Below, one piece after another: positions 40,904 to 58,888 of a DNA stretch of 64,000 nt. A program made the position numbers and the translations under genes. The DNA lies in the NCBI RefSeq assembly GCF_900009265.2, contig NZ_LR735016.1, positions 131,782 to 195,781 of the forward strand, given 5' to 3'. Source of the stretch: Planktothrix paucivesiculata PCC 9631 (GTDB lineage: Bacteria; Cyanobacteriota; Cyanobacteriia; Cyanobacteriales; Microcoleaceae). A model generated the notes under the pieces. The model worked only from the letters and a program-made list of their open reading frames with translations, did no database searches and was not told where the DNA came from. Within the stretch, counting starts at the first letter, position 1; each line of letters opens with the position of its first letter.

Positions 40904-40929
40904 CAGGGGGTTTGGGTTAGGCTGAATTG

Positions 40930-40976
40930 GGACTTACGGAAAGAAACCGGGTTTGTGACCTCCCGTGCGTAAGTCC
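40930..40976. repeat. MITE-like GGACTTACG inverted repeat
   Basis: GGACTTACG (40930-40938) and CGTAAGTCC (40968-40976) flank about 30 bases that include GAAACCGGGTTTG. The ends match the element at 28721-28820. Confidence 0.75.
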
Positions 40977-41022
40977 TGAACAGGTTATGGGCTTTAAAGT
41001 TGATTAAAAAATCAAGAGTAGT

Positions 41023-41078
41023 GGTGTGTTACCCCCTACAAGTATTGTCTCCTAGGTGGAGGGTTTTGTCAACCCCCT
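41023..41078. repeat. Left copy of the dnd inverted repeat, with outward promoter-like sequence
   Basis: This 56-bp sequence aligns without gaps to the reverse complement of 47923-47978, by my count at about 47 positions. It contains GGGTT-TTGTC-AACCC, a short hairpin. On the minus strand it reads TTGACA-N17-GACAAT (-35 at 41067-41072, -10 at 41044-41049), pointing away from the dnd genes. The similarity continues inward more weakly to ACCACAAAGACAC near 41123. Confidence 0.85.
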
Positions 41079-41142
41079 TTCCAGAAAAGTCGAAATTTTT
41101 GGGGCTGGGAAATATTATTATCACCACAAAGACACAGAGGGG

Positions 41143-42702
41143 TTATAAGATTTCGGGTAAACCGACCTCTTTGGGTTTAACGAATTTACCGTCAAAGCTG
41201 ACGGCTTTATTTTCAAATGTCCTAGCATCGGCTAGGGCTTTGCGTAACTCGGCGCATTCCATGGGTTGCTGCATTCCTCCTAATAAATAGATGAGTAACT
41301 TGGCGGCTAGGTCTTTTCCGGCGACTCTGACCCGGCGTTTATTCGGGTCATATAATATTCCATACCAGAGGGAGTCGGGATATTCCATGCCGCTAAACCC
41401 CCCAGACCCATCAAAAGTTTGTAATTTCTCGAAAATCTCTGCTAGGGGTTGTTGTTGATAAAAGACTAATACCCCCAGGGCGGCGGCTACGGCTACTTGT
41501 CCCACGGGGCGAAATAATATATTTCCTTCCCCTGGGGGTTTCTCAAAACTAAACCTTCGCAGGTCGGGGGTTTCCCAACGGTCTTCTAAGCGTTGATAGC
41601 TGGGTAAGGTTGCCAGGGCATCAAAAAGTTGTTGTAATTCCTGAATACCTGTTTCTAACTCTTGGGTTGTGGGGCGTCGGGGGACTAACCCGGGTTTGGC
41701 GGCTTTCCAGTGGGGAAATTTGGGGGTTAAGTAGCGTTGACCCATATCTGTTAGGGCTTGCAGGGTGGTTAATACGGTTGACTTGGAGGCGACGGTGGCA
41801 CTATCCCAATTAATTCTAGGGTTGCGTCCGGGTTTATCGGCAAATAGAGGATGGGAAACAACAACCTGGCGAGTAACGATAGAAAACCCATCATCTTCGT
41901 CTAATAGGGCTAACTGTCCTTTACTGAGTTTAACGGCCATTAAGTTAACGTGGACAAAAATAGACCTAACCCTTTGTCTAGCTTGGGCGCGGGTTTCTCC
42001 TTTCACAACGGCGGGAATAAATTCTACGCCGATGGTTTCTTGGGATAGTTGTTGTAACTGTTGGGGGGTGATACCGATTTTTTGGGTTAACTCCTTAACG
42101 GTAATAGCATCGCCGATGGGTTTTTTCTGTTTGCTGTAGGGTTGCAAGTGTCCTGTCCGTAGGAGTTGCATTAACCCTTGTATCCCCATCAGGCGATGTT
42201 GTCCATCGAGGGCAAAGATGGAGACATCCTCGGACATTTGCAGGAGTCCGAGTTTTCCCTGAGTATCGAGGGGTAAAAAGTCAATGGCGGACTGGGTGGC
42301 TTGGCCCTGTTTATCCCATTGGGGGGCTTGGGGGTTATCGACCCAGGAGGGACTGAGGACGACTAACACCGCCGGGAATTTATGGTCTTTGTGGTTGGTC
42401 AGGTATTGGGTAAGGGTGGCCTGTCGTGACCAGTCCAGGGGACGTTGCAGGATGTCGTCCACGGTTTCGGTGTCTCTTTCGACGTTGCCTGTGGGGTCTA
42501 AATGGGGTTGAAATAGGGGCAGTTGGGAGGCGAAACCGACTTTGGCGGCTATCCATTCTAGGGTGACGGAGGTGATAAAGGTTTCGGTTTGGGCCATATA
42601 GGTTTTTTGAACCAGTAAGCTATCTGCTTTTTGTAGATAGGGTTTCAGCAGTTGTGCAATTGCTTTTTGGGATTCGGAATTGAGTTGGGTTTCAGTATCC
42701 AT
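41143..42702 (-). CDS. DGQHR-domain protein (DndB-like)
   Basis: A 519-residue protein with the signature ALDGQHRLMG (DGQHR at 166-170), the mark of the DndB/DGQHR superfamily. Further parts (VKGETRAQARQRVRSIFVHV, LSKGQLALLDEDDG) also fit this group; the middle part is unlike the neighbouring dndB. It is transcribed away from dndBCD across a 157-base control region. DndB proteins bind DNA at Dnd sites and have been reported as regulators of dnd transcription. This copy may be a regulator or an accessory. Codon use is more GC-rich than in dndB-dndC. Confidence 0.75.
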   Translation of the reverse strand: MDTETQLNSESQKAIAQLLKPYLQKADSLLVQKTYMAQTETFITSVTLEWIAAKVGFASQLPLFQPHLDPTGNVERDTETVDDILQRPLDWSRQATLTQYLTNHKDHKFPAVLVVLSPSWVDNPQAPQWDKQGQATQSAIDFLPLDTQGKLGLLQMSEDVSIFALDGQHRLMGIQGLMQLLRTGHLQPYSKQKKPIGDAITVKELTQKIGITPQQLQQLSQETIGVEFIPAVVKGETRAQARQRVRSIFVHVNLMAVKLSKGQLALLDEDDGFSIVTRQVVVSHPLFADKPGRNPRINWDSATVASKSTVLTTLQALTDMGQRYLTPKFPHWKAAKPGLVPRRPTTQELETGIQELQQLFDALATLPSYQRLEDRWETPDLRRFSFEKPPGEGNILFRPVGQVAVAAALGVLVFYQQQPLAEIFEKLQTFDGSGGFSGMEYPDSLWYGILYDPNKRRVRVAGKDLAAKLLIYLLGGMQQPMECAELRKALADARTFENKAVSFDGKFVKPKEVGLPEIL

Positions 42703-42751
42703 TAGAGGTATGTTGCCAAATGAGTCAATAAATGCTATATTACCTAGAAAT

Positions 42752-42784
42752 GGTTTTTAAAAATTTAAGTAAGGTTTTTAAAAA
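42752..42784. promoter_or_regulatory. Twin GGTTTTTAAAAA direct repeats in the divergent dnd promoter
   Basis: Two exact 12-base copies at 42752-42763 and 42773-42784 have starts 21 bases apart, two helical turns, and each has a TTTTTAAAAA palindrome. They lie between the two DGQHR genes and are good operator candidates, possibly for a DndB-type repressor. Confidence 0.55.
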
Positions 42785-42859
42785 CTTATTCCTAGTCCTA
42801 CTTTACCGGAATAGAGGGGTTTAGGGAATATCTGTAATTTCTGAAAAGAGGAAATAGTC

Positions 42860-44086
42860 ATGACTGAAGAACAGCCACAGAAGCGTTCAAGTGCCGAAAT
42901 TGTTATGCTTCCAACTCAACAGGATGCTCTAACTCAATCATCAGCTGATTCTGCCACTTGTGGTGCAAGAGTATTTCAATGTCATGTTTATGAACAAGGA
43001 CAGAGAGTTCATTTAGCTTTTTGTCTCTCTTTTAAGCAACTTCTTGAAATGGCAAAATTTCAAACAGCAGACAAGAAAAAAAATAGATCTAATGCTGAAG
43101 ATATCACAAATCGCCCTTTAGTTCCAAACCATGTTAATGAAATTGCTAAATACTTACTAGAAACTGATAATTATATTTTACCTTCATTTATTTTTAATTG
43201 TAAAACGCCGATCAAAGTTTTTGCGTTTGGTTCAGGGGTAATGCAGTTTGGTTATGCTGTTTTACCAAGCAATGTTGAACTTTATGTTACAGATGGTCAA
43301 CATCGGATTAAAGCAATTGAAAAAGCAGTTCAAGAAAGACCTGAATTATTGAACGATAGTGCAACGGTATTAGTTGTTCAAGAAGATGATATTGATCAAA
43401 TTCATCAAGATTTTGCTGATTGTGCTAAAAACAAGCCAATTTCACCTGCATTGCTCACCACATTTGATGTTAGTGATGCTTTATCAAAACTTACCCGTGA
43501 CATTTCCAAAGATTTAGTCATTTTTGCAGGACGTATCGATAAAATATCTCGAACTGTGAATGAAAAAGATTCAGATTATCTGTTCACGATGAATCAGTTA
43601 CGACTGGGAATAGCAGAATTTTTGTTTGGTTCATCTCAGAAAAAGACAATTGAATCTTGTAAAAATCAAAACCGACATCAGCTAAAATTATTGTTAGAAA
43701 AAGCTCGATATTTCTATACTGAATTTGCTACACATAATGATGGATGGACTTTACTTCTTAAACCTAAATCTGAAGGATTAAACCTTGATTTATCTAAATT
43801 ACGAAAAGAAAGAATAGATTTTTATAGCGTGGGATTACAATTAATTAGTCGAGTTGGTCATTTGATTTTATTTGAAAACGATTTTACTGAGGAGCAGCGT
43901 AATTTGTTAATTAAAACATTAGCTAATTTAGATTATAAAAGGACTACATCTATGTGGATAAATAATTTGCTTATGGATGATGGTAATGGAAAAATGACAA
44001 TCATCAATAACCAAGCAGCAGTCAATAAAGCATTTAGAATTGCTGTGTCTGAGGTTGAAAATCAAACAGGTCTATTGTTAAAGTAA
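42860..44086 (+). CDS. dndB: DNA sulfur modification protein DndB
   Basis: A 408-residue protein with LYVTDGQHRIKAIEKA (DGQHR at 145-149) and the order expected of DndB. DndB is not essential for modification in model systems but affects the level and site preference, and is reported as a transcriptional repressor of the dnd operon. GAGGAAATAGTC precedes the ATG, a good ribosome site. The gene is strikingly AT-rich, with AGA/AAA codons, compared with flanking host genes, and lacks HIP1 octamers, which suggests transfer. dndC follows 30 bases later. Confidence 0.9.
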   Translation: MTEEQPQKRSSAEIVMLPTQQDALTQSSADSATCGARVFQCHVYEQGQRVHLAFCLSFKQLLEMAKFQTADKKKNRSNAEDITNRPLVPNHVNEIAKYLLETDNYILPSFIFNCKTPIKVFAFGSGVMQFGYAVLPSNVELYVTDGQHRIKAIEKAVQERPELLNDSATVLVVQEDDIDQIHQDFADCAKNKPISPALLTTFDVSDALSKLTRDISKDLVIFAGRIDKISRTVNEKDSDYLFTMNQLRLGIAEFLFGSSQKKTIESCKNQNRHQLKLLLEKARYFYTEFATHNDGWTLLLKPKSEGLNLDLSKLRKERIDFYSVGLQLISRVGHLILFENDFTEEQRNLLIKTLANLDYKRTTSMWINNLLMDDGNGKMTIINNQAAVNKAFRIAVSEVENQTGLLLK

Positions 44087-44116
44087 GCCTAAAATTTTAT
44101 TTATGGGATGTAAAAA

Positions 44117-45694
44117 ATGACTACAATTCAGGAAATTCTTTTATTAAAACGTACTGTCAATGAGTTTATAGAAGATTTACAAAAATCTACTCAAGAAATC
44201 CAAGATTTATACTGCTTGGATCAAATACCTTGGATTATTGGTGTATCTTGGGGAAAAGATAGTACAGCAACATTACAACTAATTTGGAATGCTATCTCAA
44301 AACTGCCTATAGAAAAGCGTCAAAAAACAATTTATGTAATTACAACAGATACTTTAGTTGAGAATCCTATTGTTTCTACTTGGGTGCGTAAATGTATTAC
44401 TCAACTAAAAAAAGCTATTCAAGAGCAAAATATGCCAATGGAAGCTCATTTATTACATCCAGAAGTTTCACATACTTATTGGGTTGGTTTAATTGGTAAA
44501 GGTTATCCCGCACCTCGTCTTAAATTTCGATGGTGTACTTCTCGATTAAAAATTGATCCATCTAATCGCTTTATTCGTGATGTTGTAAGAACTAATGGGG
44601 AAAGTATTATAGTTCTAGGAACTCGCAAAAGTGAAAGCGTTAGTCGTGGCAAGAGGATGAGAGAACTTGAAGGTCAGCGAGTCCGTGAACGCCTCAGTCC
44701 TAATGTTAGTTTGCTCAATTCTTTAGTTTATACGCCGATTGAAGATTGGCGTACTGATGAAGTTTGGATGTATTTAATGCAGTGGGAAAACCCTTGGGGG
44801 GGTAATAATCAAGAATTATTCGTTTTATATCGAGGTGCAACCGCAGATAATGAATGTCCCTTAGTTGTGGATACCTCAACCCCTAGCTGTGGTGATTCTA
44901 GGTTTGGATGTTGGGTTTGTACTTTGGTTGATAGTGATAAATCATTAACCGCAATGATACAAAATGATCAAGAAAAAGAATGGTTACAACCTCTGATTGA
45001 TATTCGTTTAGAATTAGATATCCAAAATGATCGAGAGAAACGAGATTTTAGACGACTTGTTGGAAAAGTTCAACTATTTGAACGTAATATTGATGGAGAA
45101 ATATCCGTCGAACCCATTCCGGGGCCCTATACCAAAAAATGGCGAGAACATTGGTTAAGACGGGTATTAGAAGCGCAACAACAAATTAGACAAACAGCGC
45201 CCGAAGAATATCGAGATACAACCTTAATTACCATAGGAGAACTGAGCGAAATCAGGAGAATATGGTTAGAAGAAAAACACGAATTTGATGATAGTGTACC
45301 TAAAATCTATCAGGAAGTTATGGGAGAAACCTTTGAAGACCCCCGTTTGGGTGCAGGAAATACCGTCCTCGGTGTAGATGAATGGGAATTATTAGAAGAA
45401 CTCAGTCAAGGAGATACAATGTATATGGAATTAATGGCAAAACTGATTGATACAGAACGTCAATATAAAACCATGGCAAGACGAAATGGCATTTATGATG
45501 ATTTAGAAAAGTGTTTAGAAACCAGTTCTCGACCTCAAGAACAAGCTATTAATAACGCTCATTATGAACGCAATTTAAAAGAAGCCGCCAAAACCGGAAA
45601 TGTTGAACAAGTCAAGCACGCCATAGAAGACAAAAACCCCGAACCTCCACAACAGTTAAGTTGGGGAAGTTTGAAATTTCAAAACCCTACCTAA
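44117..45694 (+). CDS. dndC: DNA phosphorothioation protein DndC
   Basis: A 525-residue PAPS-reductase/ATP-pyrophosphatase-like protein. The PP-loop is GVSWGKDSTATLQL (about 42-55). The cysteines C140 (RWCTSRLK) and C258, C265, C268 (CGDSRFGCWVC) are the expected 4Fe-4S ligands. DndC activates the sugar-phosphate backbone with ATP before sulfur is inserted by the DndA/IscS-derived persulfide; no dndA is in the window, so a host IscS or SufS probably supplies it. The length matches the family. A hairpin-rich insertion separates it from dndD. Confidence 0.95.
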   Translation: MTTIQEILLLKRTVNEFIEDLQKSTQEIQDLYCLDQIPWIIGVSWGKDSTATLQLIWNAISKLPIEKRQKTIYVITTDTLVENPIVSTWVRKCITQLKKAIQEQNMPMEAHLLHPEVSHTYWVGLIGKGYPAPRLKFRWCTSRLKIDPSNRFIRDVVRTNGESIIVLGTRKSESVSRGKRMRELEGQRVRERLSPNVSLLNSLVYTPIEDWRTDEVWMYLMQWENPWGGNNQELFVLYRGATADNECPLVVDTSTPSCGDSRFGCWVCTLVDSDKSLTAMIQNDQEKEWLQPLIDIRLELDIQNDREKRDFRRLVGKVQLFERNIDGEISVEPIPGPYTKKWREHWLRRVLEAQQQIRQTAPEEYRDTTLITIGELSEIRRIWLEEKHEFDDSVPKIYQEVMGETFEDPRLGAGNTVLGVDEWELLEELSQGDTMYMELMAKLIDTERQYKTMARRNGIYDDLEKCLETSSRPQEQAINNAHYERNLKEAAKTGNVEQVKHAIEDKNPEPPQQLSWGSLKFQNPT

Positions 45695-45696
45695 CC

Positions 45697-45802
45697 CTCG
45701 TTCCCAGGCTCCCGCCTGGGAATGACTGATGCAGGCTCCCGCCTGCTATTATTGGAGGCGGAGCCTCCTTAAGAGCATTTCTAGGTAGAACCTAGAAACG
45801 AG
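45697..45802. repeat. Hairpin-rich MITE-like insertion between dndC and dndD
   Basis: About 106 bases contain CCCAGGCTCCCGCCTGGG, GCAGGCTCCCGCCTGC and GGAGGCGGAGCCTCC, three hairpins in a row. The ends are CTCGTTCCCAGG and the inverted CCTAGAAACGAG. It interrupts the dndC-dndD intergenic space and may weaken read-through. Confidence 0.85.
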
Positions 45803-45841
45803 ATAAACGGGATAAAAATTAACCTTTAAACTTTTAATTTT

Positions 45842-47827
45842 ATGATTTTCTTAGAATTAACTTTAGAAAACTTTGGCCCCTATCGAGGCAAACAAGTAAT
45901 TGATTTACGCCCTAAAATTAATGATAATGTGATTAGTCCCATTGTCTTATTTGGAGGTATGAATGGGGGCGGAAAAACTACCTTAATGGATGCAATGCGG
46001 CTCGCCCTTTATGGACAACGCGCCCAATGTTCTACCCGGGGAAGTTTAAGTTATCCTGAATTTCTCAAACAAGCGGTTAATAAACAAACCCTAGCCCATG
46101 AAGAAACCAGTGTAGAATTATTATTTGAACATATTGTTAAAAATATGCAAGTCGAGTTTCGGGTTAAACGTCGCTGGACAAAAAACCCGAAAAATGGTAA
46201 GGATATTTTAGGCATATTAATTGATGACTGGCCGGACTCCGCTTGGGTAGAAACCTGGGATGAGCGCATCGAAGATTTTTTCCCTATTGGAATTTCTAAC
46301 TTGTTTTTATTTGATGGGGAACAGGTCAAGGAATTAGCCGATTTAGACAGTCCTCCTAATGTTGTGGTACAAGCTATTCAATCTTTATTAGGATTAGAAT
46401 TATCTGAACGTTTAGCCGTAGATTTAGATATTTTAGCTAACCGTAAACGCCGACAGTTAGCTGACTCAAAAGATTTAGCTTATTTAGAAGAAATTGAAAC
46501 TAAATTAAATCAGTACAAATCGGAAAAAGAGGCGGCGGAAATAGCGGTAGAAGAATTAAAAATTAAGGCCGGAATTGCCAAGAAAAAGTTAAATCAAGCT
46601 AAGGAAAAGTTTAAACTCGAAGGGGGTAAAATAGCCGGAGAACGGAGTCAACTAGAGAAAAAGTTAGAGGAGGAGAAAGAAAAAGCCCAACAACAACGGC
46701 AACGTCTTGGTGAGTTAGCCGGGGAAGGTTTACCCTTAAGTTTAATTCAACCTTTATTAATTCAAGCGCGAAAGCAAGGAAAACAGGAGTTAAACTGGGA
46801 AAAAGCCAAGGTAGCCCAGGATTTTATTAAAGATCGAGATCAGCGATTATTCGAATATTTAGAAGAACTTAATATTGCTAAAAAGCAGTTAGAAAGTGTT
46901 AAAATCTATCTGGAAACCGATTATCAAAATTTGACCGAAAATCATCATAATCAAGAAAAGATATTTTTAGAAATTGATGAAAAAGTTTTCAGTCAATTAG
47001 GAACGTTTTTAGACCATCAACTTCCCAGTCAAATCCAACAATCTCAGGACGTTTTAGAGGCGTTAAGAGTAATTGAAGATACCCTATCTAGTCTGGATAA
47101 ACAATTGGCTATTGCAGCCCCTCCAGAGGTCTATGAACAACTGTTAGAAACGGTATCCCAAGCCCAAACCGAATACACTAAAATTGAAACTGCGATCGAA
47201 GTAGCAGAACAGCACGCTAAAAAATGTTTAACTGAATATGAAAAGGTTAAAAAAGAGCTAGAAAAATATAGTCAAAATACCATTGATCGAAAAAATGCCA
47301 ATCATATTATTGAGACTATTAGTAAAGTTCAGAACTCTTTAAAAATATTTAAAGAGAAATTAACCCTGAAAAAATTGAATAAACTAGAAGTAGAAGTGAC
47401 TGAATGTTTCCGCTATTTATTGCACAAATCAGACTTAGTACATCGAGTGGTAATTGCTACGGAAGACTTTAGTTTATCCCTGTACGATCCCCAGGGACAA
47501 CCTGTAGAGAAACATCGCCTATCTGCGGGAGAAAAACAACTATTAGCGATCGCCTTTTTATGGGGTTTAGCTCGGGTTTCAGGACTCAATTTACCCATCG
47601 CCATTGACACCCCCCTGGGTCGTTTAGACTCCTCCCACCGTCAAAACCTAATTGAACGGTATTTTCCCGCAGCTAGTCATCAAGTTATTTTACTCTCAAC
47701 GGATACAGAAATTGCCCAAAAGGAAGTTAATAGTTTACGAGAACAAGATGCGATCGCCCGTGAATACCTACTCAAATATGATCCCAAACAACGCCAAACC
47801 AGGATAGAACTAGGTTATTTCTTTTAA
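45842..47827 (+). CDS. dndD: DNA phosphorothioation ATPase DndD
   Basis: A 661-residue SMC/Rad50-like ATPase. Walker A is FGGMNGGGKTTLMDA (about 37-51), and long coiled coils (about 210-500) are rich in E, K and Q. The C-terminal half has LSAGEKQLLAIAFLWGLA (signature) and LPIAIDTPLGRLDSSHRQNL (Walker B and D-loop). DndD couples ATP hydrolysis to DNA nicking or distortion for sulfur insertion. The two GCGATCGC sites in its 3' part and its codon use are closer to the host than dndBC. The stop is followed by the right inverted repeat. Confidence 0.94.
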   Translation: MIFLELTLENFGPYRGKQVIDLRPKINDNVISPIVLFGGMNGGGKTTLMDAMRLALYGQRAQCSTRGSLSYPEFLKQAVNKQTLAHEETSVELLFEHIVKNMQVEFRVKRRWTKNPKNGKDILGILIDDWPDSAWVETWDERIEDFFPIGISNLFLFDGEQVKELADLDSPPNVVVQAIQSLLGLELSERLAVDLDILANRKRRQLADSKDLAYLEEIETKLNQYKSEKEAAEIAVEELKIKAGIAKKKLNQAKEKFKLEGGKIAGERSQLEKKLEEEKEKAQQQRQRLGELAGEGLPLSLIQPLLIQARKQGKQELNWEKAKVAQDFIKDRDQRLFEYLEELNIAKKQLESVKIYLETDYQNLTENHHNQEKIFLEIDEKVFSQLGTFLDHQLPSQIQQSQDVLEALRVIEDTLSSLDKQLAIAAPPEVYEQLLETVSQAQTEYTKIETAIEVAEQHAKKCLTEYEKVKKELEKYSQNTIDRKNANHIIETISKVQNSLKIFKEKLTLKKLNKLEVEVTECFRYLLHKSDLVHRVVIATEDFSLSLYDPQGQPVEKHRLSAGEKQLLAIAFLWGLARVSGLNLPIAIDTPLGRLDSSHRQNLIERYFPAASHQVILLSTDTEIAQKEVNSLREQDAIAREYLLKYDPKQRQTRIELGYFF

Positions 47828-47922
47828 CAACAACTTCCATATTTCTTTGTGTCTTCGTGTCTTTGTGGTTAAACTCCAGCGCCAAAAAATATTAATCTTG
47901 AAAAAAAATTCATTTTTTGCCT

Positions 47923-47978
47923 AGGGGGTTGACAAAACCCGCCGTCTGGGGGACAATGCTTGTAGGGGTTTACACGCC
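47923..47978. repeat. Right copy of the dnd inverted repeat, with promoter-like sequence towards dndE
   Basis: The inverted partner of 41023-41078. On the plus strand TTGACA (47929-47934) and GACAAT (47952-47957) are 17 bases apart and point to dndE, whose start is 300 bases downstream. The inward flank has GTGTCTTTGTGGTT, matching the left flank. Confidence 0.85.
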
Positions 47979-48257
47979 CATACGCTTGAATAATTAATCA
48001 ACACGCTACAAAAGTTGAGTCACTCCCCTAACTCGGTGTGTGGTGAAAACAAGAATATTTGTTAACCCAAACTTAACAAAAGTCTATTTTTCATCAAGAT
48101 TTTGTAAAGAAGTCTCAACACCAGGGAACACTTTCTCATGTTCCAGGTATAAAATGCTTAGTATATAAATCTAAAATCCGTAGATTCCCATATAAAACCC
48201 ATATAAAAACGGAATAGGCAATGACAACTCCCACACTGATCACTGATCACTGAACCA
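47979..48257. other. Leader region of dndE, no gene seen
   Basis: This 279-base stretch between the right inverted repeat and dndE contains ACTGATC heptamers at about 48235-48252 (CACTGATCACTGATCACTGA) just before the dndE start. No other feature is supported. Confidence 0.5.
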
Positions 48258-48659
48258 ATGGAACCCCCCGTAGAACGAATCCGCCTATCCCAAACGGCGA
48301 AGGAGCAACTAACCAAACTCAAACGAATTACCAAAATAGAAAACTGGAATATTCTGTGCCGTTGGGCTTTGTGTCGTTCCCTAGCCGAGTCAACCATTCC
48401 TTCCCCGGTGCCCATCCCCGCCGATAGCAACGTGGAAATGACATGGCAAGTCTTTGGGGGAGAGATGGGTGATTTATTCACCCTTGCCCTAAAGCAACGT
48501 TGCCATAATGACCATTTAGGAATCGACCCAGAAACCCTTGCCACCCAGTTTCGCCTGCACCTGCACCGAGGAATTAGTTACCTAGCAGGTGATCAGAATC
48601 TCAAACAGATTGAAGATTTCATCGCCCTCACCCCCGCCCAAAACCCTGTTAACCCATAA
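48258..48659 (+). CDS. dndE: DNA sulfur modification protein DndE
   Basis: A 133-residue protein starting MEPPVERIRLSQTAKEQLTK, with WNILCRWALCRSLAE and MTWQVFGGEMGDLFTLALKQ. These are the recognisable DndE helices. DndE forms a tetramer and binds nicked double-stranded DNA in the Dnd complex. Unlike usual dndCDE clusters, it is 430 bases from dndD and lies beyond the inverted repeat. There is no good ribosome-binding site; CACTGATC repeats precede the ATG. Confidence 0.88.
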   Translation: MEPPVERIRLSQTAKEQLTKLKRITKIENWNILCRWALCRSLAESTIPSPVPIPADSNVEMTWQVFGGEMGDLFTLALKQRCHNDHLGIDPETLATQFRLHLHRGISYLAGDQNLKQIEDFIALTPAQNPVNP

Positions 48660-48802
48660 ACGAAACGGCAGAGCACAGCACGATCATGCTCTCTCCTCAA
48701 CTTTCTAGGGGAACTCGCCGCGCCGAACAAAATTGTTAAACTAGAAACGAGAGGATAATCTCCGTGATCATACTGAATAAAGAATCTGGAACGGTGAATG
48801 CC

Positions 48803-49288
48803 ATGACTATAGATTCTAACCGCAGATATCATAATGTGATGGAAGACTTAGTTGCTGAGGAAGTCAAGCGTCAATTAGCAACCCTGTCTCCTCGACTCTG
48901 CCAATACATCAAACGAGTTGAAGTCGAAACCTATGCCCTCAACCGTTTACCGCCGCTTTATGCTTCCTGTCAAGAAGGTTGGATGCAGCAACTCAAAAGG
49001 GGAAGGGAAGAATTCCATGCCCCAATTAAAACCGCAGTTCGACAGGCGATCGCAGCCGTTCAACGGGACTTGCTACGACATTCCACCCCATTGTCCCCAG
49101 AAGAATCAACCCCAGTGAAGGAGGAGAGTCCCAAACCAGAGGCTGCCCAAATCTTACCCCGTCATGCCGCTGAATCCCCCGTACCACCTCCCCCTGGGCT
49201 CGATCGGAAAGTTGTCCACCGTAATCGGGCTTTTGCCGATAATTACTCGCGCAAAGAAGCCTCAATTCGAGATGGCTGGCACGGTTAA
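48803..49288 (+). CDS. ComFB-family c-di-GMP receptor (CdgR type)
   Basis: About 161 residues with the ATG at 48803 ([16 protein letters not shown]); a GTG at 48764 would add 13 residues. The ComFB domain covers [40 protein letters not shown] and [16 protein letters not shown], followed by a Pro-rich disordered tail with [18 protein letters not shown]. Cyanobacterial ComFB proteins (Slr1970/CdgR) bind c-di-GMP and affect cell size or motility. Its stop codon shares bases with the convergent ftsZ stop codon. Confidence 0.8.
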
Positions 49289-50562
49289 CGCTTGGGAGGA
49301 TTGCGACGTCGCAGGAAGTCAGGAATATCTAACCCAGGTTGCCCCGGGCTGGCAGGGGTTGGGGGTTGGTTTGGGCTTGAAGGTGCCGGAATCACGGGAA
49401 TATTCCCCTGGGGTACGCTGGTCGTCCGGGTAACGGGGATAGCACTTTTGTTTTCTCCTGAGAACCCGGTGGCAATTACCGTGATTTTCACTTCTCCCTG
49501 CATCCGTTCATCAATTACCGCCCCAAAAATAATATTGGCATTGGGATCAACCACTTCATAGATGGTTTCGGCTGCTGCATTCACCTCATGTAAGGTTAAA
49601 TCCGTGCCTCCGGTAATATTAAATACAACCCCCTTGGCTCCATCAATAGAAGATTCCAATAAAGGAGAGGCGATCGCAGCCACAGCAGCCTCCCGAGCCC
49701 GGGATTTCCCGGATGCAATCCCAATCCCTAATAGGGCAGACCCGGCATCGGCCATCACTGCCCGAACGTCGGCAAAATCCACGTTTACTAACCCCGGAAT
49801 CGTAATAATATCCGAAATCCCCTGCACCCCTTGGCGCAAGACATCATCGGCATAACGAAAGGCTTCCTGCACGGGGGTTTGTTCGGCAATCACCTCTAAT
49901 AATTTATTATTCGGAATCACAATTAAGGTGTCAACCCTCGATTGTAATGCCGCGATTCCCTCATCGGCTTGGGAAATTCGCCGTCTGCCTTCAAAGTGAA
50001 AGGGACGAGTCACCACCCCAATAGTTAAAGCTCCCAGTTCCTTCGCCACCTCCGCCACCACAGGAGCCCCACCGGTTCCAGTTCCGCCTCCGAGTCCGGC
50101 GGTAATAAAGACTAAATCAGCCCCTTCCAAGGCTTTTTGAATTTCTTCTCGGGATTCTTCAGCCGCTTTTTGACCGATGGCGGGATTTCCACCCGCCCCT
50201 AGTCCCTTGGTTAGTTTCTGACCAACTTGTAGACGTTTTTGGGCTTTGGAAAGGGTTAAGGCTTGGGCATCGGTATTCATTGACCAAAACTCGATCCCGG
50301 CGACCTGGCTGTCAATCATGCGGTTAACAGCGTTACCGCCACTACCACCCACACCAATCACTTTGATCTTTGCAGCATTGCTCGGAATAATATCACCACT
50401 CCAAGAATCTTCACGGGGCATATCTTTAGAATCGTTATTAGGGTTAACTATTAGTTCTTTTCTACGGAATGGATTCGCCGAATCTTCTGTCAACCAGGGA
50501 TTCGCTTTTTCGACCGCATCAGAATTGCCTTGGGTAGACCCCAGATTATTCTTAACTGTCAT
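49285..50562 (-). CDS. ftsZ: Cell division protein FtsZ
   Basis: A 425-residue tubulin-like GTPase. [15 protein letters not shown] starts the Rossmann fold at about residue 69; the tubulin signature [13 protein letters not shown] is present, and the T7 loop reads [13 protein letters not shown]-terminal extension (about 60 residues) and the C-terminal tail [14 protein letters not shown] are typical of cyanobacteria. It polymerises into the Z ring at midcell. It follows ftsQ on the same strand with a 162-base gap containing ATTACTG heptamers. No ftsA is present, as expected in cyanobacteria. Confidence 0.97.
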
Positions 50563-51819: not shown

Positions 51820-53154
51820 GTGATCGAGCTTGACTTAAGCAGATTTTATAAAGCCTGTAACCCCAGTAAGACCATTGATATGGCTAACCCCGAAGATCGA
51901 AAGTATTACATCGATTTTTCCTCCGTCCGGGGTAATGATATCATTCGAGAATTGAGTCGCACCATTACTTTGCTATCCCATGATGAACCCACCTGTCAAT
52001 TATTTAGTGGTCATATAGGTTGTGGGAAATCAACGGAATTATTTCGTCTCAAGGATTTATTAGAACGTCAGGGATATCACGTTGTTTACTTTGAATCCTC
52101 CCAAAACCTGGATATGGCGGATGTGGATATTAGTGATGTTTTATTAATGATTGCTCGTCAGGTGAGTGAAAGTTTAGAAGCGGATCAAATTCGTCTCAAA
52201 CCCGGATATTTTTCTAACTTATTTACCGAAATTTCCGAGTTGATGCAAACGCCCATTCAACTCTCTGCCGAAGCCGAATTATCCGTCGGTATCGCTAGAA
52301 TCACAGCCAAAACCAAGGATTCTCCCAAACTCCGTTCCCAATTAAGACAATATTTAGAACCTCGTACCAGCAGTATTTTAGATGCCATTAATGATGAAAT
52401 ATTAGCTCGGGCAAATACGGCGTTACAGGCCAAGGGGAAAAAAGGAATTGTCGTGATTGTCGATAACTTAGATCGAATTGATAACTCTCCTAAACCCTGG
52501 GGAAGAACTCAACCGGAATATCTATTTGTCGATCGCGGTGAACAACTCAAACGCCTCAATTGTCATGTAGTTTTTACTATTCCCTTAACCCTAATGTTTT
52601 CTAATGACTATGATCGGCTCTCCAGTCGATTTGGAGTCAAACCCAAAGTTTTACCTATGGTTCCAGTTTGCCTGCGGGATGGTACAGAAAACCCCTCGGG
52701 GATGATGAAATTACAACAAATGGTATTAGCCCGAGCCTTTCCTGATATCCCCCCGGAAGATCGTTTTGAGTTAATATCCACTTTATTTGATAGTCCCGAA
52801 ACCTTGGAGCGTTTATGTTTAATTAGTGGGGGTCATATTCGACGTTTATTAATGTTGATGTACAGTTGTTTACAACAGGAAGATCCCCCATTTACCCGGG
52901 CTTGTTTGGAGCAGGTGATTCAAGAATATCGAGATGATCTTTTAGGTGCAATTACTCAAGAAGAATGGGAATTATTATTACGAGTGGTAAAAACTCAAAA
53001 AGTCACCGGGGAAGATGAATGTCAAACCCTACTTCGTAGTATGTTTGTTTTTGAATATCGGGATCAAGAGGGTCGTTGGTTTGGAATTAATCCCGCTTTG
53101 ACCCAAAGCAGTCAATACAAATTATTGGTCAATTCTATGACAAAAATAGCTTAA
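51820..53154 (+). CDS. P-loop ATPase paired with the STAND gene
   Basis: A 444-residue NTPase: Walker A SGHIGCGKSTELFRL (about 63-77) and Walker B GIVVIVDNLDRID (about 210-222) with the hhhhDxxDR pattern of KAP/STAND-type ATPases. VFTIPLTLMFSNDYDRLSS is a sensor-like stretch, followed by a helical lid and a C-terminal winged-helix-like part. No membrane span. A GTG start (51820). I do not know a specific function; cyanobacteria often carry it near STAND/WD40 genes. The following gene starts 470 bases downstream with a MITE between. Confidence 0.8.
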   Translation: MIELDLSRFYKACNPSKTIDMANPEDRKYYIDFSSVRGNDIIRELSRTITLLSHDEPTCQLFSGHIGCGKSTELFRLKDLLERQGYHVVYFESSQNLDMADVDISDVLLMIARQVSESLEADQIRLKPGYFSNLFTEISELMQTPIQLSAEAELSVGIARITAKTKDSPKLRSQLRQYLEPRTSSILDAINDEILARANTALQAKGKKGIVVIVDNLDRIDNSPKPWGRTQPEYLFVDRGEQLKRLNCHVVFTIPLTLMFSNDYDRLSSRFGVKPKVLPMVPVCLRDGTENPSGMMKLQQMVLARAFPDIPPEDRFELISTLFDSPETLERLCLISGGHIRRLLMLMYSCLQQEDPPFTRACLEQVIQEYRDDLLGAITQEEWELLLRVVKTQKVTGEDECQTLLRSMFVFEYRDQEGRWFGINPALTQSSQYKLLVNSMTKIA

Positions 53155-53183
53155 CTTATGTTCACGGTTTACGACATAATTCA

Positions 53184-53290
53184 GCTATAACAATCCTGAA
53201 TAAGTTCTGATAAATTATAGGACTAAAACCCTTACGGTAGGAGCAATTTGTCAATTGACCCTACCGTAAATCAAATTGGATTGCTATAGG
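53184..53290. repeat. MITE-like element in front of the STAND gene
   Basis: Ends are GCTATAACAATCC (53184-53196) and GGATTGCTATAGG (53278-53290), an inverted pair with one mismatch. Inside, TTACGGTAGG and CCTACCGTAA (53232-53241 and 53260-53269) make a second stem. No ORF. Confidence 0.8.
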
Positions 53291-53623
53291 TTGATGACTA
53301 CTTGAGGTTTTTTGTGATCTTAGGTTAATTTATCATCAGAAACAAGCTACATTTGAGGTTGATTTTGGTAAACAAATATACAATATAGTTTTTTTGTTTA
53401 TATTCTTTTAATTTTTCACTGAATCAGTTATCTTTATATAAAAGATAAGGAAGTTTACAGGACTTAAAAACCCTCCACTCTTTTTAATAGCACTCAAATT
53501 TGTTCTAGGATTACACACCCCATGTCCCCAATTTGAAAGCGGGACTTTCAAAGCACAAATATTAATAACAGTGTTTCTGATTTTCCTAATTCAATCCAAT
53601 TATCATCAGCGTGAGATTTTACC
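53291..53623. other. Leader region of the STAND gene
   Basis: This 333-base AT-rich stretch has no supported gene. A T-rich run follows the MITE (near 53390-53420). It should hold the promoter of the STAND gene; I cannot place it with confidence. Confidence 0.5.
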
Positions 53624-56600
53624 ATGGATAAACTTATTGATCCCCAAATTGTAGCCTCGGTCAATGAACGCAGTTTGAACCGATTATTGCGGGCTGTTTC
53701 CCTATCCCAAGGCCAATTTTCTCTCGTTTTAGTTAGATGCAATTCCAGTCAACTCAGACAAAAAGTTCTACAGGCCGTACAGCTTGATTCGGAAATTAAA
53801 ATTGAGCCTCTGGTTTTGTCTCCCTCTACCCAAACCCTCTATACCGATGTATCAGAAAAATTTGATAAAAACTCTCCTGATGCCCTCATGATTTTAGGGT
53901 TAGAAACCGTGGAAAATTTGGATATTCTCCTGAGTTCGACCAATCAAGTCCGAGATGAATTTAGAAAACAATTTAATTTTCCGATTATTTTATGGATTAC
54001 CGATGATATTGCCACCGCCTTAATTCGTTTAGCCCCGGACTTTAAAAGTTGGGCCGCCGCCACGATTAAATTTGAATTAACCACAACCGAATTATTAGAT
54101 TACTTAAAATTACAGGCTAATACCCTATTTACCCTAGCAGAATTAAAGATCAAAGCCTGGGAACCCAAAACCCAAAAGGTGTTTAAATCGACCGTATCCC
54201 GTCGTTTTCCCTCGGATTTTGGCATCGGTTCTAACCGCAGGCGAGAATTAGAACTCCATTGGCAAGATTTACAAAATCGAGGCTATGAATTAGATCCCGC
54301 CTTAGAAGCCTGTCGTCAGTTTATTCTGGGTCAAGATGACGATGCCAATGACTGCATCGAAATTGCCCGCCAACACTATCAACAAAGTTTAGCCCTGCTC
54401 CAAGACGAGGCGGGTTTACGAGGTTATGGCACCGCCGGGGAAATCCCCGGTCAAATCTCCGATATCGAACCATCCTTGGCGGTGATAGTTGCCCCCACTT
54501 CCCGCCCCCTGGTGTTTTGTTTAAGAGAACGTCAGGGAATTGTGTTATTTCATATTGCTTTAACCTATTATATTCAAGCCACTCGAAATCCCAACTTAGT
54601 TCAGGTTTTATTAGCAGAAGCTAAACGCTATTTTGAGCAAAGTCAGCAAATTTTTAAACAAGCTGGACGTCCTGATTTACTCGCTGGAGTAATTTCCCAT
54701 TTTGGTGAAGTATTGCAACGTTTACAATTATGGGAAATGTTACAAGAATTAGCCCTGGGGGGCATAAAAATGCACTTGGTTTATGGAACCTCCAGTCAAT
54801 TAGCTCAAGATTATGTGTTTATGGCGGAGGTAGCTTTAAAAAGATCGGAATGGCATCGGGCATTAGTATTAGCAAAATTGGCTTTAGCGATTTTACCTTC
54901 GGTGAAACCCACGGTGAGTCAAGGACAGTGTTTATTATTATTAGCCCGTTGTTATCAACATCAGGGAGAATGGCAACCCGCCAAACAGAAATTAGAATTA
55001 GCCCTAGGTCAAATTGAACCCCAATATAATCCTCAGTTGTATTTAGATATTTTGGGGGAATTACGCAATATTGACTATCAGCAAGGTCAGTATCGTCAAG
55101 CCTTTAGAATTAAGAAAAAACAACGGGAAATTGAACATCAATATGGGTTCCGAGCCTTTATTGGAGCAGCCCAACTTCAACCCCCAAAACAAGCGATTAA
55201 TCCCTCTAGTACCCAAGGAGAAAATATCGTGGCAATTGCCGAAGAAATGATGGCATCCTGTCGCCAACACGACATTCAGAATTTGCTCCATCGCTTGAGT
55301 CGGGATGATCACAAATTAATTATTATTCATGGTCGTTCGGGAGTGGGAAAAAGTTCTTTAGTGAATGCGGGTTTAGTTCCAGCTTTAAGAAATACGGCAA
55401 TTAGTGCCCGGGATTGTTTGCCCGTGGTGATTCAAGGATATATGGATTGGACTCGGGAATTAGAAAGGAGTTTAGCCAGTGCCTTATTAAATTGTGATTC
55501 CTTTAAATATCCCGATGAGTCGATTAAAAAACTCTGGTATACAGTAATTGCCCAATCCTCTATTCAAAATTGGAATAATCGAAATCCCAATCAAAGCGAG
55601 CCGGATGTCCCCGCGGCTTTTATTCTGAATCCGGCTTCTTTTGTGTTGAAACAACTCACCGAAAATGCAGAAAGAAATTTACTCACGGTTTTGATTTTTG
55701 ACCAATTTGAAGAATTCTTTTTTGTTTCTAATTGTCATCAAGAAAAGCGCAAAATATTTTATAATTTTCTCAAAATTTGCTTAGATTTACCCTTTGTAAA
55801 AATAGTTTTTTCTCTGAGGGAAGATTATCTGCATCATCTTTTAGAATGTGATCAATTACTCAATTTAGATGCCATTAATAATAATATTCTCGATAAAAAA
55901 AATCGCTATCATTTGCGTGATTTTACTTTGGCAGAATCTAAAATAGTAATTGAACGGTTAACCCAGGGGGCTAAATTACAATTAGAACCAAGTTTAATTG
56001 ATACTTTAGTTACGGATTTAGCCGATGAACGTGACCGAATCCGCCCGATTGAATTACAAGTTGTTGGTGATCAAATTCAAGAACAGGGAATTACCACATT
56101 AAGGGCTTATAAAAAATTAGGAACTAATCCTAAAAACGAATTAATTAAACATTCCATTGAACAGGTTGTCAAAGATTGTGGCAACCAAAATGAAGATGCC
56201 ACTTGGGAAGTTTTATTTGCCCTAACGGATGAAAAATTTACCCGTCCGATTAAGACTAAAGCAGAATTAATTGCTGTGGCGATTAAAGCGGGGGGAGTTG
56301 GGGGCACTTCGACAGGCTCAGTGGCCGCAGGGGGAGGAAATAGAGGGGAACGGGAGGAGGAGGTGGCGTTTATTGATGTGATTTTGGAATCAGGGTTGCT
56401 GTTACGAAGACGGGAAGAACCCGAAGATCGATATCAACTCCTCCATGATTATTTAGTGTTACCAATTCGACAACGTTATGGACTGCAAGAACAACAGCGT
56501 CAGCAGGATATTCAGCAACGGTTACACAAAGCCCAATCTGAACAATCGAAGGCGGAAGCAGCCTTAAAAAAAATGAGTCGGGAGCAACTGTTACAGCGCA

Positions 56601-58888
56601 ATCAACAGTTACAACAATTGTTAGGAGTATCGATCCTGGTTGTCATGTTATTGGGTTTTACAACAAAACTTGCCACCTATCAACAAAGACGGGCTGACGG
56701 GCAAAAGCAAATCGCCGATTTAGCCACCTTAACGGCATCTTCCGATGCCCTATTTTTCTCCCAATATAAATTCGATGCCCTCCTCGAAGGTTTAAGGGCG
56801 GCTCGACAATTTCAACGGTTAAAAGCCATGACCCAAGATCCGTCGGAATTCAAAACCATGGAAACTCGAATTGCGGCTACCTTGCAACAGGCGGTATATG
56901 GGACAACTGAACGCAACCGTTTAGAAGGACATCAAGATGTAGTTTGGGATGCTGCCTTTAGTCCCGACGGCAATTATATAGCTTCCGGGAGTGTGGACAA
57001 AACCGTGAAATTGTGGAAACCCGACGGCCAAATTCTGCAAACCTTCGTCGGTCATCGGGGAAATGTCACCAGTGTGAGTTTTAGTCCCGATAGTCAGATG
57101 ATTGCTTCATCTTCTCAAGATGGGACGATTAAACTTTGGCCTGTAAATTCCAGTCTAGCCTGGAAAGAGTCAGTCACCCCCGTCACACTCCAAGGACATC
57201 GCCGGGGTGTTTCCTCGGTGACTTTTTCACCCGATGGCCGTTTGATCGCTTCGGTATCTGAGGATCGTCAATTAAAATTATGGAGCCGAGAGGGGACTTT
57301 GTTGCAAACAGTCTATCGGGCCTCCGCCCCTTTAACCTGGGTAGCCTTTAGTCCCAATGGTCGGGTTTTGGCGATCGCATCGGCTGATGGGACGGTCAAA
57401 CTACTAAAATTAGATGGAACCGTTCTCCAAACTTTAGATCACACCGCTAATCATCATCAAACGGTATATAAGGTAATTTTTTCTCCTAACGGTGAACGAA
57501 TTGCGACGGTGGGACAGGATCAAACCTTGAAATTGTGGACATATCGAGGCAAATTATTAAAAACCTTAAAAGGCGATCAGTCTAAAATCTATGGGGTAAA
57601 TTTTTCTCCCGATAGTCAACTATTGGCAACTTCTACGGACAACAAAAATATCTATTTATGGACGGTGGAGGGAACTCTATTAAAGCACTGGCAAGGACAC
57701 GGGGATAAGGTAAGCAGTGTGCAATTTTCCCCCGATGGCAAGACTTTAGTATCCTCAAGCTATGACAAAACAGTAAAACTCTGGAGTTGCGATCTGATTC
57801 CCCTCAAAACCTTGACGGGGCATCGGCATCAGGTCTTAGGCGTGAATTTTAGCCCGAATGGTGAGATGTTTGCTTCAGCGAGTCGGGACACAATGGTGAA
57901 ACTTTGGAGCCGTACAGGAGCACTATTGACGACCTTAACGGGGCATCAAGATCGGGTGACATCCGTGAGTTTTAGTCCCGATGGGGAACTTTTGGCGACT
58001 ACTGGTTATGACCGAACCGTGAAATTGTGGAAACTGAGTCCTCACCAGGAAAGCTCAGAAAAAATCCAGGGGGGTTTGTTTAAATTGCCCTATGGGATGA
58101 TTCCTTGGAATCTGCCGAATCCCAAACAGTCTTTACCTTTGATCAAAAAACGGATTTTGGTGGAATCGATTCCACTGGTTCACAGTTGGATCGGTCATGA
58201 TGATAAGATTCTCAATTTCACCTTTAGTCCAAATGGAGAAAAAATTGCTACGGCGAGTAAGGATAAAACGGTAAAATTATGGAGTCGAAACGGCCAATTA
58301 TTGCATACTTTAATCGGCCATAGTTTACGGGTTAATAGTGTTACCTTTAGCCCGAATGGGGAAGTGATTGCCACTGCCAGTGATGATGGGACAATTAAAC
58401 TTTGGGATGCTCAAGGACAGTTGTTCAAGACAATTATGGCGGATCAGGGTTATGTTTTGAGTATTAATTTTAGTCCCGATGGTCAATTGATTGCTTCTGC
58501 TGGCTATGATAATACGGTTAAACTTTGGGATAGTCAGGGAAACTATCTGAAAACGCTGTTAAAGGGATCAAGTGATAGTGTCACCAGTGTGGTGTTTAGT
58601 CCTGACAGTAAGTTAATTGCTTCGGCGAGTTACGATGGTAAGGTGAAGTTGTGGAGTCCTGATGATGGTACCTTACTGAAAACTTTGGCGGGACATCGGG
58701 ATAGTGTGATGGCTATTAGTTTTAGTCCTGATGGTCGGGTTTTAGTTTCAGCCAGCCAGGATGATACGTTAATTATGTGGAATCTTGATTTAGATAATTT
58801 GACCGATCGTGCTTGTGATTGGGTTCATGATTATCTACGAACTAATCCCAAAGTCCAAACCAGCGATCGCGATCTTTGTAATCAGTAA
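53624..58888 (+). CDS. Giant STAND NTPase with 14 WD40 repeats
   Basis: A 1754-residue protein. Residues about 8-170 are an N-terminal module shared with the TPR protein at 8939. A TPR-like region (about 210-520) follows; then Walker A IIHGRSGVGKSSLVNAGLVP (about 568) and the nSTAND1-type Walker B LIFDQFEEFFFV (about 690). A coiled stretch and a single span (LLGVSILVVMLLGF, about 1000-1020) follow. Fourteen WD40 units begin at about 1100 with repeated AFSPDG...KLW, enough for two seven-bladed propellers, with a 45-residue insert after unit 9. A linker at about 890-910 contains a dispersed repeat sequence read in frame (GGTSTGSVAAGGG). It may be a sensor or scaffold in signalling or conflict; the function is unknown. 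Confidence 0.85.
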   Translation: MDKLIDPQIVASVNERSLNRLLRAVSLSQGQFSLVLVRCNSSQLRQKVLQAVQLDSEIKIEPLVLSPSTQTLYTDVSEKFDKNSPDALMILGLETVENLDILLSSTNQVRDEFRKQFNFPIILWITDDIATALIRLAPDFKSWAAATIKFELTTTELLDYLKLQANTLFTLAELKIKAWEPKTQKVFKSTVSRRFPSDFGIGSNRRRELELHWQDLQNRGYELDPALEACRQFILGQDDDANDCIEIARQHYQQSLALLQDEAGLRGYGTAGEIPGQISDIEPSLAVIVAPTSRPLVFCLRERQGIVLFHIALTYYIQATRNPNLVQVLLAEAKRYFEQSQQIFKQAGRPDLLAGVISHFGEVLQRLQLWEMLQELALGGIKMHLVYGTSSQLAQDYVFMAEVALKRSEWHRALVLAKLALAILPSVKPTVSQGQCLLLLARCYQHQGEWQPAKQKLELALGQIEPQYNPQLYLDILGELRNIDYQQGQYRQAFRIKKKQREIEHQYGFRAFIGAAQLQPPKQAINPSSTQGENIVAIAEEMMASCRQHDIQNLLHRLSRDDHKLIIIHGRSGVGKSSLVNAGLVPALRNTAISARDCLPVVIQGYMDWTRELERSLASALLNCDSFKYPDESIKKLWYTVIAQSSIQNWNNRNPNQSEPDVPAAFILNPASFVLKQLTENAERNLLTVLIFDQFEEFFFVSNCHQEKRKIFYNFLKICLDLPFVKIVFSLREDYLHHLLECDQLLNLDAINNNILDKKNRYHLRDFTLAESKIVIERLTQGAKLQLEPSLIDTLVTDLADERDRIRPIELQVVGDQIQEQGITTLRAYKKLGTNPKNELIKHSIEQVVKDCGNQNEDATWEVLFALTDEKFTRPIKTKAELIAVAIKAGGVGGTSTGSVAAGGGNRGEREEEVAFIDVILESGLLLRRREEPEDRYQLLHDYLVLPIRQRYGLQEQQRQQDIQQRLHKAQSEQSKAEAALKKMSREQLLQRNQQLQQLLGVSILVVMLLGFTTKLATYQQRRADGQKQIADLATLTASSDALFFSQYKFDALLEGLRAARQFQRLKAMTQDPSEFKTMETRIAATLQQAVYGTTERNRLEGHQDVVWDAAFSPDGNYIASGSVDKTVKLWKPDGQILQTFVGHRGNVTSVSFSPDSQMIASSSQDGTIKLWPVNSSLAWKESVTPVTLQGHRRGVSSVTFSPDGRLIASVSEDRQLKLWSREGTLLQTVYRASAPLTWVAFSPNGRVLAIASADGTVKLLKLDGTVLQTLDHTANHHQTVYKVIFSPNGERIATVGQDQTLKLWTYRGKLLKTLKGDQSKIYGVNFSPDSQLLATSTDNKNIYLWTVEGTLLKHWQGHGDKVSSVQFSPDGKTLVSSSYDKTVKLWSCDLIPLKTLTGHRHQVLGVNFSPNGEMFASASRDTMVKLWSRTGALLTTLTGHQDRVTSVSFSPDGELLATTGYDRTVKLWKLSPHQESSEKIQGGLFKLPYGMIPWNLPNPKQSLPLIKKRILVESIPLVHSWIGHDDKILNFTFSPNGEKIATASKDKTVKLWSRNGQLLHTLIGHSLRVNSVTFSPNGEVIATASDDGTIKLWDAQGQLFKTIMADQGYVLSINFSPDGQLIASAGYDNTVKLWDSQGNYLKTLLKGSSDSVTSVVFSPDSKLIASASYDGKVKLWSPDDGTLLKTLAGHRDSVMAISFSPDGRVLVSASQDDTLIMWNLDLDNLTDRACDWVHDYLRTNPKVQTSDRDLCNQ
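56306..56328. repeat. Dispersed repeat read in frame inside the STAND gene
   Basis: ACTTCGACAGGCTCAGTGGC at 56306 and the flanking GGGGG tracts look like the ACTTCGACTTCGCTCAGTAAC element at 18090. It has kept the frame and adds a Gly/Ser/Ala stretch to the linker between the NTPase domain and the coiled region. Confidence 0.7.

Follow-up and report, generated by a model that had tools for sequence, protein, structure and literature searches.

Inverted promoter-like elements behind the divergent dnd units of Planktothrix paucivesiculata PCC 9631, and exchange of the front half of DndC

Genes and inverted arms of the dnd locus

The dnd locus of Planktothrix paucivesiculata PCC 9631 was analysed in a window of 64 kb (C136:131782-195781 of a 6.15 Mb assembly; positions below are those of the window, and handles with G, L and C denote genomes, loci and contigs). 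Between a left (IR_L) and a right (IR_R) inverted arm lie the genes for a DGQHR/DndB-family protein, a second DndB-family protein, DndC and DndD, and dndE follows 280 bases past a 56-bp core of the right arm, exactly as an earlier note on this DNA had called these genes (Table 1). Its label dndB holds at the level of the family PF14072. With the DndB equivalog TIGR03233, which has a cut-off of 328 bits, the second DndB-family protein scored only 88.6 bits and the other one 24.8 bits. These two proteins are the only PF14072 members encoded in the genome. DndB is described as non-essential in the portions of PMC8569181 available.

The 56-bp inverted pair (41023-41078 and 47923-47978) shows 47 of 56 ungapped matches, the figure given earlier. 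The arms are homologous beyond this core, over 90 nt of which 71 match. When the two flanks were mononucleotide-shuffled 300 times, the best value averaged 28.2/56 and peaked at 36/56. Read outward, both arms feature the same layout: TTGACA, 17 nt, GACAAT, 28 nt and a 16-bp palindrome TTGA-N8-TCAA. The window contains two instances of the pattern of both hexamers plus palindrome, and 100 shuffles produced none. Two hexamers spaced by 16-18 nt, as in sigma-70-type promoters, were found in both arms, with agreement at 10 of 12 hexamer positions.

When the own genome was searched for further copies by BLAST (E up to 10, all 15 candidates scored), just the pair was found. The 14 further matches were 14-22 bp each, with a best E of 0.57. 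A second query likewise returned two copies (14 of 23 first-look candidates scored).

Table 1 Coordinates of the features of the dnd locus and of related genes (window positions unless a locus is named)
Feature	Position	Strand	Remarks
9-bp perfect inverted repeat	40930..40976		GGACTTACG / CGTAAGTCC; junction of CpsD-like gene and IR_L; read by eye
IR_L, left inverted arm	40999..41088	-	reads leftward, about 55 bp past the DGQHR stop
Parts of IR_L	41072-41067; 41049-41044; 41015-41000		TTGACA; GACAAT after 17-nt spacer; palindrome TTGA-N8-TCAA
DGQHR/DndB-family gene	41143..42702	-	519 aa; TIGR03187 162.4 bits, PF14072 60.8 bits; divergent from main unit
Second DndB-family gene	42860..44086	+	408 aa; PF14072 232.5 bits
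dndC	44117..45694	+	525 aa; TIGR03183 679.8 bits, above equivalog cut-off 290.4
dndD	45842..47827	+	661 aa; TIGR03185 653.8 bits, above equivalog cut-off 245.85
Segment containing IR_R	47831..48053		about 223 bp; replaced by about 17 bp in G002, G003
IR_R, right inverted arm	47913..48002	+	reads rightward, about 85 bp past the dndD stop
Parts of IR_R	47929-47934; 47952-47957; 47986-48001		TTGACA; GACAAT after 17-nt spacer; palindrome
dndE upstream region	48054..48257	+	recognisable in G002, G003, G004, G008 too
dndE	48258..48659	+	133 aa; TIGR03184 134.2 bits, above equivalog cut-off 71.85; PF08870 154.1 bits
ComFB-family gene	48764..49288	+	PF10719; adjoins dndE in 9/9 genus genomes with dndE
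FtsZ-type gene (name presumed by us from the sequence)	49285..50562	-	neighbour of dndE-comFB in 9/9 genus genomes with dndE
SBD-HNH-like genes	L018:3413-4381; L020:8954-9937; L027:8922-9941		directly before dndC
dnd_restrict_1/PbeA-like helicase gene	L257:5881-7248		own genome, C137
DndD-like ATPase gene, labelled PbeC	L257:2496-4559		own genome, C137

Copies of the element in the genus and beyond

The genus sample comprised ten genomes including the own one; the genus takes in Planktothrix rubescens (G001 is P. rubescens PCC 7821, G004 is Planktothrix sp. PCC 11201). The element was additionally searched by BLAST across 61 genomes of the family. As scoring was limited to 14 candidates in each genome, the copy numbers are minimum values. 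At least 23 places of the element were found in the genus, 15 of them at dnd and 8 elsewhere. The full layout was seen in each of the eight matches away from dnd (E up to 0.01). A contig end truncates one of the dnd copies, that of G005, so that the full copies number 22.

All 22 keep TTGACA at a distance of 17 nt from the second hexamer, while the letters of the spacer diverge. This second hexamer reads GAYAAT in 19 copies and TACAAT, TATGAT and TATAAT in one each. In every full copy the preceding gene lies on the same strand, with its stop 31-416 bp before TTGACA, and this holds for all seven kinds of site. The next gene past the element, present for 21 copies, has the same orientation in 11 and the opposite one in 10. 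The constant relation of the element is thus to the preceding gene and not to the next one. The clearest promoter-like place away from dnd is the one before pgsA, occupied in three species (L249-L251).

At the dnd locus, all nine genus genomes with a visible DGQHR gene have IR_L. Five have a full IR_R (G000, G001, G004, G007, G009), and G005 has one cut by the contig end. IR_R is absent in G002, G003 and G008, which have only IR_L. In G006 its place is beyond readable sequence, as a short tandem repeat terminates both contigs. A third DndB-family gene follows IR_L at 178 nt in G004, G006, G007 and G009, and dndE follows IR_R at 233-257 nt in G000, G001, G007 and G009.

A profile built from 14 dnd arms, gathered with a word containing TTGACA, was scanned against 160 loci and the window. 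Strong matches occurred only at the ends of the dnd block of this genus. Three weak matches came from outside it (L064, E 0.008; L050, E 0.37; L173, E 0.54) and were excluded from the copy count. The one in L050 (Aphanothece hegewaldii, 15832-15875) lies between dndD and dndE and reaches E 0.0033 with a second profile. BLAST gave 11 weaker matches in other genera, five of which were fetched: none has the full layout, and what three of them have in common with the element is the block around the palindrome. One of these three, from a different genus of the family, repeats this block in four units of about 180 bp set in tandem (L260:3102-3691). NsiR1-like tandem arrays were considered for these copies, an identification that we did not adopt.

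No match to the element was obtained in 72,556 plasmid and 50,697 phage records, and the pattern was absent from the viral contigs searched. Among the matches listed, the literature on phosphorothioation in cyanobacteria, SBD-HNH proteins, DGQHR proteins, DndC specificity, Planktothrix repeats and PbeABCD yielded no description of the arm elements or of an exchange of DndC halves.

Nature of the arms

Based on these results we favour the explanation that the arms are two copies of a promoter-like element of about 100 bp. The copies would stand sense-oriented behind the divergent dnd units, would be inverted by this geometry and would probably serve as outward promoters instead of marking the ends of a mobile unit. 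We assign this explanation a probability of about 0.68. DGQHR is read leftward and dndB-C-D rightward, and a same-sense element behind each unit must face its twin. Because each of the divergent units has its rear element, the inverted order and the place behind the stops require no mobility. The predicted promoters would fire outward, IR_R helping to express dndE and IR_L helping to express, in the sister genomes, the third DndB-family gene, which is absent from this genome.

Several observations weigh against this explanation. A general promoter scan of the region gave no excess (23 found, 18.6 expected), so that the promoter look by itself says little and the comparison across copies bears the weight. 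Two of the seven kinds of site in that comparison are the dnd arms themselves. The 14 arms of the profile were collected with a word containing TTGACA, although BLAST without the word found the same places. A promoter role for the next gene cannot be general, because this gene is convergent in 10 of 21 copies, and dndE, with its own recognisable upstream region, may need no IR_R. Homology on the left flank of the window breaks at most 12 bp from the outer edge of IR_L, as an element end would give.

The alternative that survives best, though we consider it unlikely, is a passive miniature repeat that landed behind genes and inherited a promoter look without function. An extragenic, dispersed element often found between convergent genes would suit this description, as would the tandem set of four partial copies, spaced by about 180 bp, in one other genus. 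Such a repeat would not be expected to preserve TTGACA and a spacing of exactly 17 nt in all 22 copies despite the divergence of the spacer, nor to hold corresponding places before pgsA in three species; the lack of matches in the plasmids, phages and viral contigs searched also speaks against it.

A small RNA gene, consisting of a promoter and a short transcript around the palindrome, is improbable. It would account for the conserved block straight after the promoter and for the irrelevance of the direction of the next gene. RNAalifold, however, gave no consensus structure for 26 sequences (of 27 collected), Rfam was silent at the window arms and at the three of eight off-dnd copies searched, and no T-run was seen by eye after the palindrome. 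A below-threshold Rfam match to Cyano-1 was noted in L255, away from the element.

The earlier note had offered two readings of the arms, of which the first, ends of a mobile unit that carries DGQHR-dndB-C-D without dndE, is the least probable of all and was not borne out: the four enclosed genes include no transposase or integrase, no target duplication abuts the arms, three of the nine genomes with a readable left end have only the left arm, and the same elements occur at eight sites unlinked to dnd. One-armed loci and dispersed copies were what that note itself had named as arguments against borders. The longest direct word shared near the outer ends is 8 bp, which overlaps the edge of the left arm and begins 9 bp outside the right arm. 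Moreover, dndC is present in 54 of 59 genomes (one match being weak), whereas strong matches to the arm profile were confined to this genus among the 160 loci scanned. What favours a mobile unit is that the only two copies found by BLAST in the own genome stand exactly at the edges of the block, that the left break lies close to IR_L, that block and dndE are separated in G004 and G008, and that the block stands beside mdh in G008.

The one clean parting from dndE whose position could be mapped, that of G004, also speaks against a mobile unit: homology to the window stops at 48060 on the dnd side and restarts at 48062 next to dndE, a break 58 bp outside IR_R. Beyond IR_L, the G004 block carries the third DndB-family gene, as in G009, and a further neighbour common to G001 and G009. 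The left break of the window adjoins the 9-bp inverted repeat at the site where the four sister genomes (G004, G006, G007, G009) have the third DndB-family gene. That gene is absent here (40904-40998), and what we take to be a CpsD-like exopolysaccharide-type gene abuts the IR_L side. In G001 its place beyond IR_L is occupied by a presumably TnpB-like gene.

The neighbours of mdh agree in the seven other genomes compared with G008 (all except G004 and G005). In the comparison for empty sites, mdh was covered in seven of nine other genomes, and the GTPase-like gene of G004 and the CpsD-like gene in five each; only the mdh neighbourhood is common to all. The arrangement in G008 reads as a rearrangement and not as a clean insertion, because this genome differs beyond the block as well. 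No inversion between the arms was seen: DGQHR adjoins IR_L and dndD adjoins IR_R wherever both were visible.

The second earlier reading, a repeat that later split the operon, comes closer. About 223 bp with IR_R in the window correspond to about 17 bp in G002 and G003, a difference from which gain and loss cannot be told apart. The promoter-like reading removes a likely false lead, that of a dnd transposon, and provides a geometric rule: elements standing in the same sense behind divergent genes mimic borders.

Placement of dndE

The genes dndE, comFB and ftsZ are found together in all nine genus genomes with dndE, including G004 and G008, in which the dnd block is elsewhere. Seven dndE loci of other genera were viewed. 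In three of them comFB is next to dndE (G014, G018, G021), and in two ftsZ is near (G014, G021); neither gene was found at the other four (G043, G046, G047, G053). With comFB at three and neither gene at four of these loci, anchoring of dndE by comFB-ftsZ characterises this genus and some other members of its family. About 200 bp upstream of dndE are recognisable with or without IR_R at 69-88% (G004 88%, G002 and G003 about 69%); in G008 the first 58 bp are recognisable, at 72%. Since dndE stays with comFB-ftsZ in this genus, it likely lies outside the arms as a unit of its own that was kept there.

In a wider survey of 59 genomes, dndC was found in 54 (weakly in G056), DndE in 51 and both in 50. 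The distance between dndC and dndE was within 5 kb in 22 of these 50 genomes, above 20 kb on the same contig in 5 (of 27 same-contig pairs), and 23 had the genes on different contigs. When dndE is away, dndD stays with dndC, as checked in G018, G004 and G008 (in the latter two, dndE is on another contig). In this order, dndE is thus often apart from the rest of the locus, compared to the always linked pair that DndD and DndE are called in a passage of PMC10853773.

A displaced dndE is not new, because varied or split cyanobacterial loci have been reported: parts of PMC8569181 describe varied configurations in which the dndFGH cluster is absent, and parts of PMC8546630 describe dndBC and dndDE apart in Microcoleus. 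Our locus agrees with these in its dndC, dndD and dndE equivalogs and in being split and reordered. It differs in the genus-specific place of dndE beside comFB-ftsZ and in the promoter-like elements behind divergent units, which the portions of the two reports considered here do not describe.

Comparison of the element with known repeats and operators

The element shares with the DndB operators of Salmonella, TACGN10CGTA twice in the promoter according to an excerpt of PMC4507180, a palindrome at a promoter-like dnd site with DndB-family genes adjoining. Here, however, the palindrome is TTGAN8TCAA, stands behind genes and occurs off dnd too. Repetitive extragenic palindromes (REP) and similar repeats are alike as short extragenic palindromes, and REP-like ones are mentioned for Planktothrix (PMC9366434, PMC3733652). 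Compared to the REP described in the available parts of these sources, the element is longer (about 100 bp), has a full promoter layout, was found in few copies and is sense-oriented to the preceding gene.

Exchange of the DndC front half

Residues 1 to about 285 of DndC fall into five classes, namely {G000, G006}, {G001, G009}, {G002}, {G003, G007, G008} and {G004, G005}. Identity is 95-100% within and 63-72% between classes, and the classes cross the species groups given by FtsZ, DndD and DndE. At the DNA level, G000 and G006 agree at 99-100% in five bins of 150 bases within the front half and at 76-97% elsewhere, the dndC-dndD spacer excepted. DGQHR, the back half of DndC and DndD largely follow species. 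The gene before dndC also varies, being of the DndB family in three and SBD-HNH-like in six of nine genomes; it is not visible in G005. By these comparisons, what is really exchanged between species is the DndC front half and the gene before dndC, inside the arms. The swap region corresponds to 42860-45000 of the window and was also viewed in L018, L020, L027 and L127-L134.

The link between the two parts is loose. Between G000 and G006, identity is 99% in the front half but 84% in the DndB-family protein, and the DndB-family gene type in G000, G002 and G006 goes with two front-half classes. No linked inheritance was apparent in 62 wider loci, where the gene before dndC changed 23 times on the front-half tree and 22 times each on the trees of the back half and of DndD.

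Three SBD-HNH-like representatives from sister genomes contain HNH_2, and one representative matched the solved structures of SBDHga1 (8h0l, E 5.3e-20) and TagI (E 1.2e-6). The same representative scored 129.9 bits with NCBIfam PT-DNA_restrict, below the cut-off of 180. In a set of 80 loci, an open reading frame of the SBD-HNH cluster precedes dndC in 19, of which 7 hold only short or split frames. The sister proteins are like SBD-HNH nucleases in HNH_2 and in the SBD/HNH structure match. In the survey of these nucleases, as far as the accessible part of PMC7461809 goes, they stand beside dnd in <3.6% of cases and the pairing is expected to be rare, as harmful to the host, whereas here they stand directly before dndC in 6/9 genus genomes.

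The specificity-loop triplet of the window DndC is R134-L135-K136. With the rule linking triplet to site that is laid out in the seen part of PMC12193691, R-L-K predicts GpsGCC. The five classes have five different triplets, and because all ten genus alleles fit the one rule R-x-K/R, a change of the core motif by the front-half swap is not indicated by the sequences.

It is tentatively conceivable, though rather unlikely, that a fixed dnd chassis with an exchangeable cassette (DndC front half plus SBD-HNH or DndB-family gene) retunes the tagged or cut sites like hsdS exchange in Type I systems, while the outward elements set the expression of dndE and the third DndB-family gene. In any case, attention shifts from the arms to the front half of DndC as the real unit of exchange, and to the phosphorothioate-reading nuclease-like genes that immediately precede dndC.

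Restriction partner, DndA and further genes

The proposal that this is a modification-only system is doubtful, because a protein above the cut-off of the phosphorothioation restriction enzyme model dnd_restrict_1 (671 bits, cut-off 600) is encoded elsewhere in the genome, on C137. Its gene lies about 1.3 kb from that of a DndD-like ATPase labelled PbeC by PADLOC. We do not claim a working Pbe system, since the protein covers only positions 247-681 of the 682 of PbeA and the window's DndD, too, scores best with the PbeC models of PADLOC. For DndFGH, a search of the genome with the one model dnd_assoc_3 (TIGR03238) gave no match, which does not show that DndFGH is absent, as the control genomes gave none either. 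Close to the pair on C137 lie a gene for the plasmid replication protein CyRepA1 and a RelB-like antitoxin match that is weak (20.7 bits, below the cut-off of 50).

In line with the earlier note, which saw no dndA in the window, the genome gave no match above the cut-off of the DndA equivalog TIGR03235 (480 bits), the best cysteine desulfurase reaching 437.8 bits. Three cysteine desulfurase matches above 320 bits are candidate substitutes. IscS stands in for DndA elsewhere, according to part of PMC8569181. As no DndA equivalog was found, it is plausible from the sequence matches that a host IscS-type enzyme serves as DndA.

Downstream of the locus, a gene for a P-loop ATPase stands beside that of a 1754-aa STAND-type protein with WD-like repeats seen by eye (51820-58888); this pair is possibly another defence gene.

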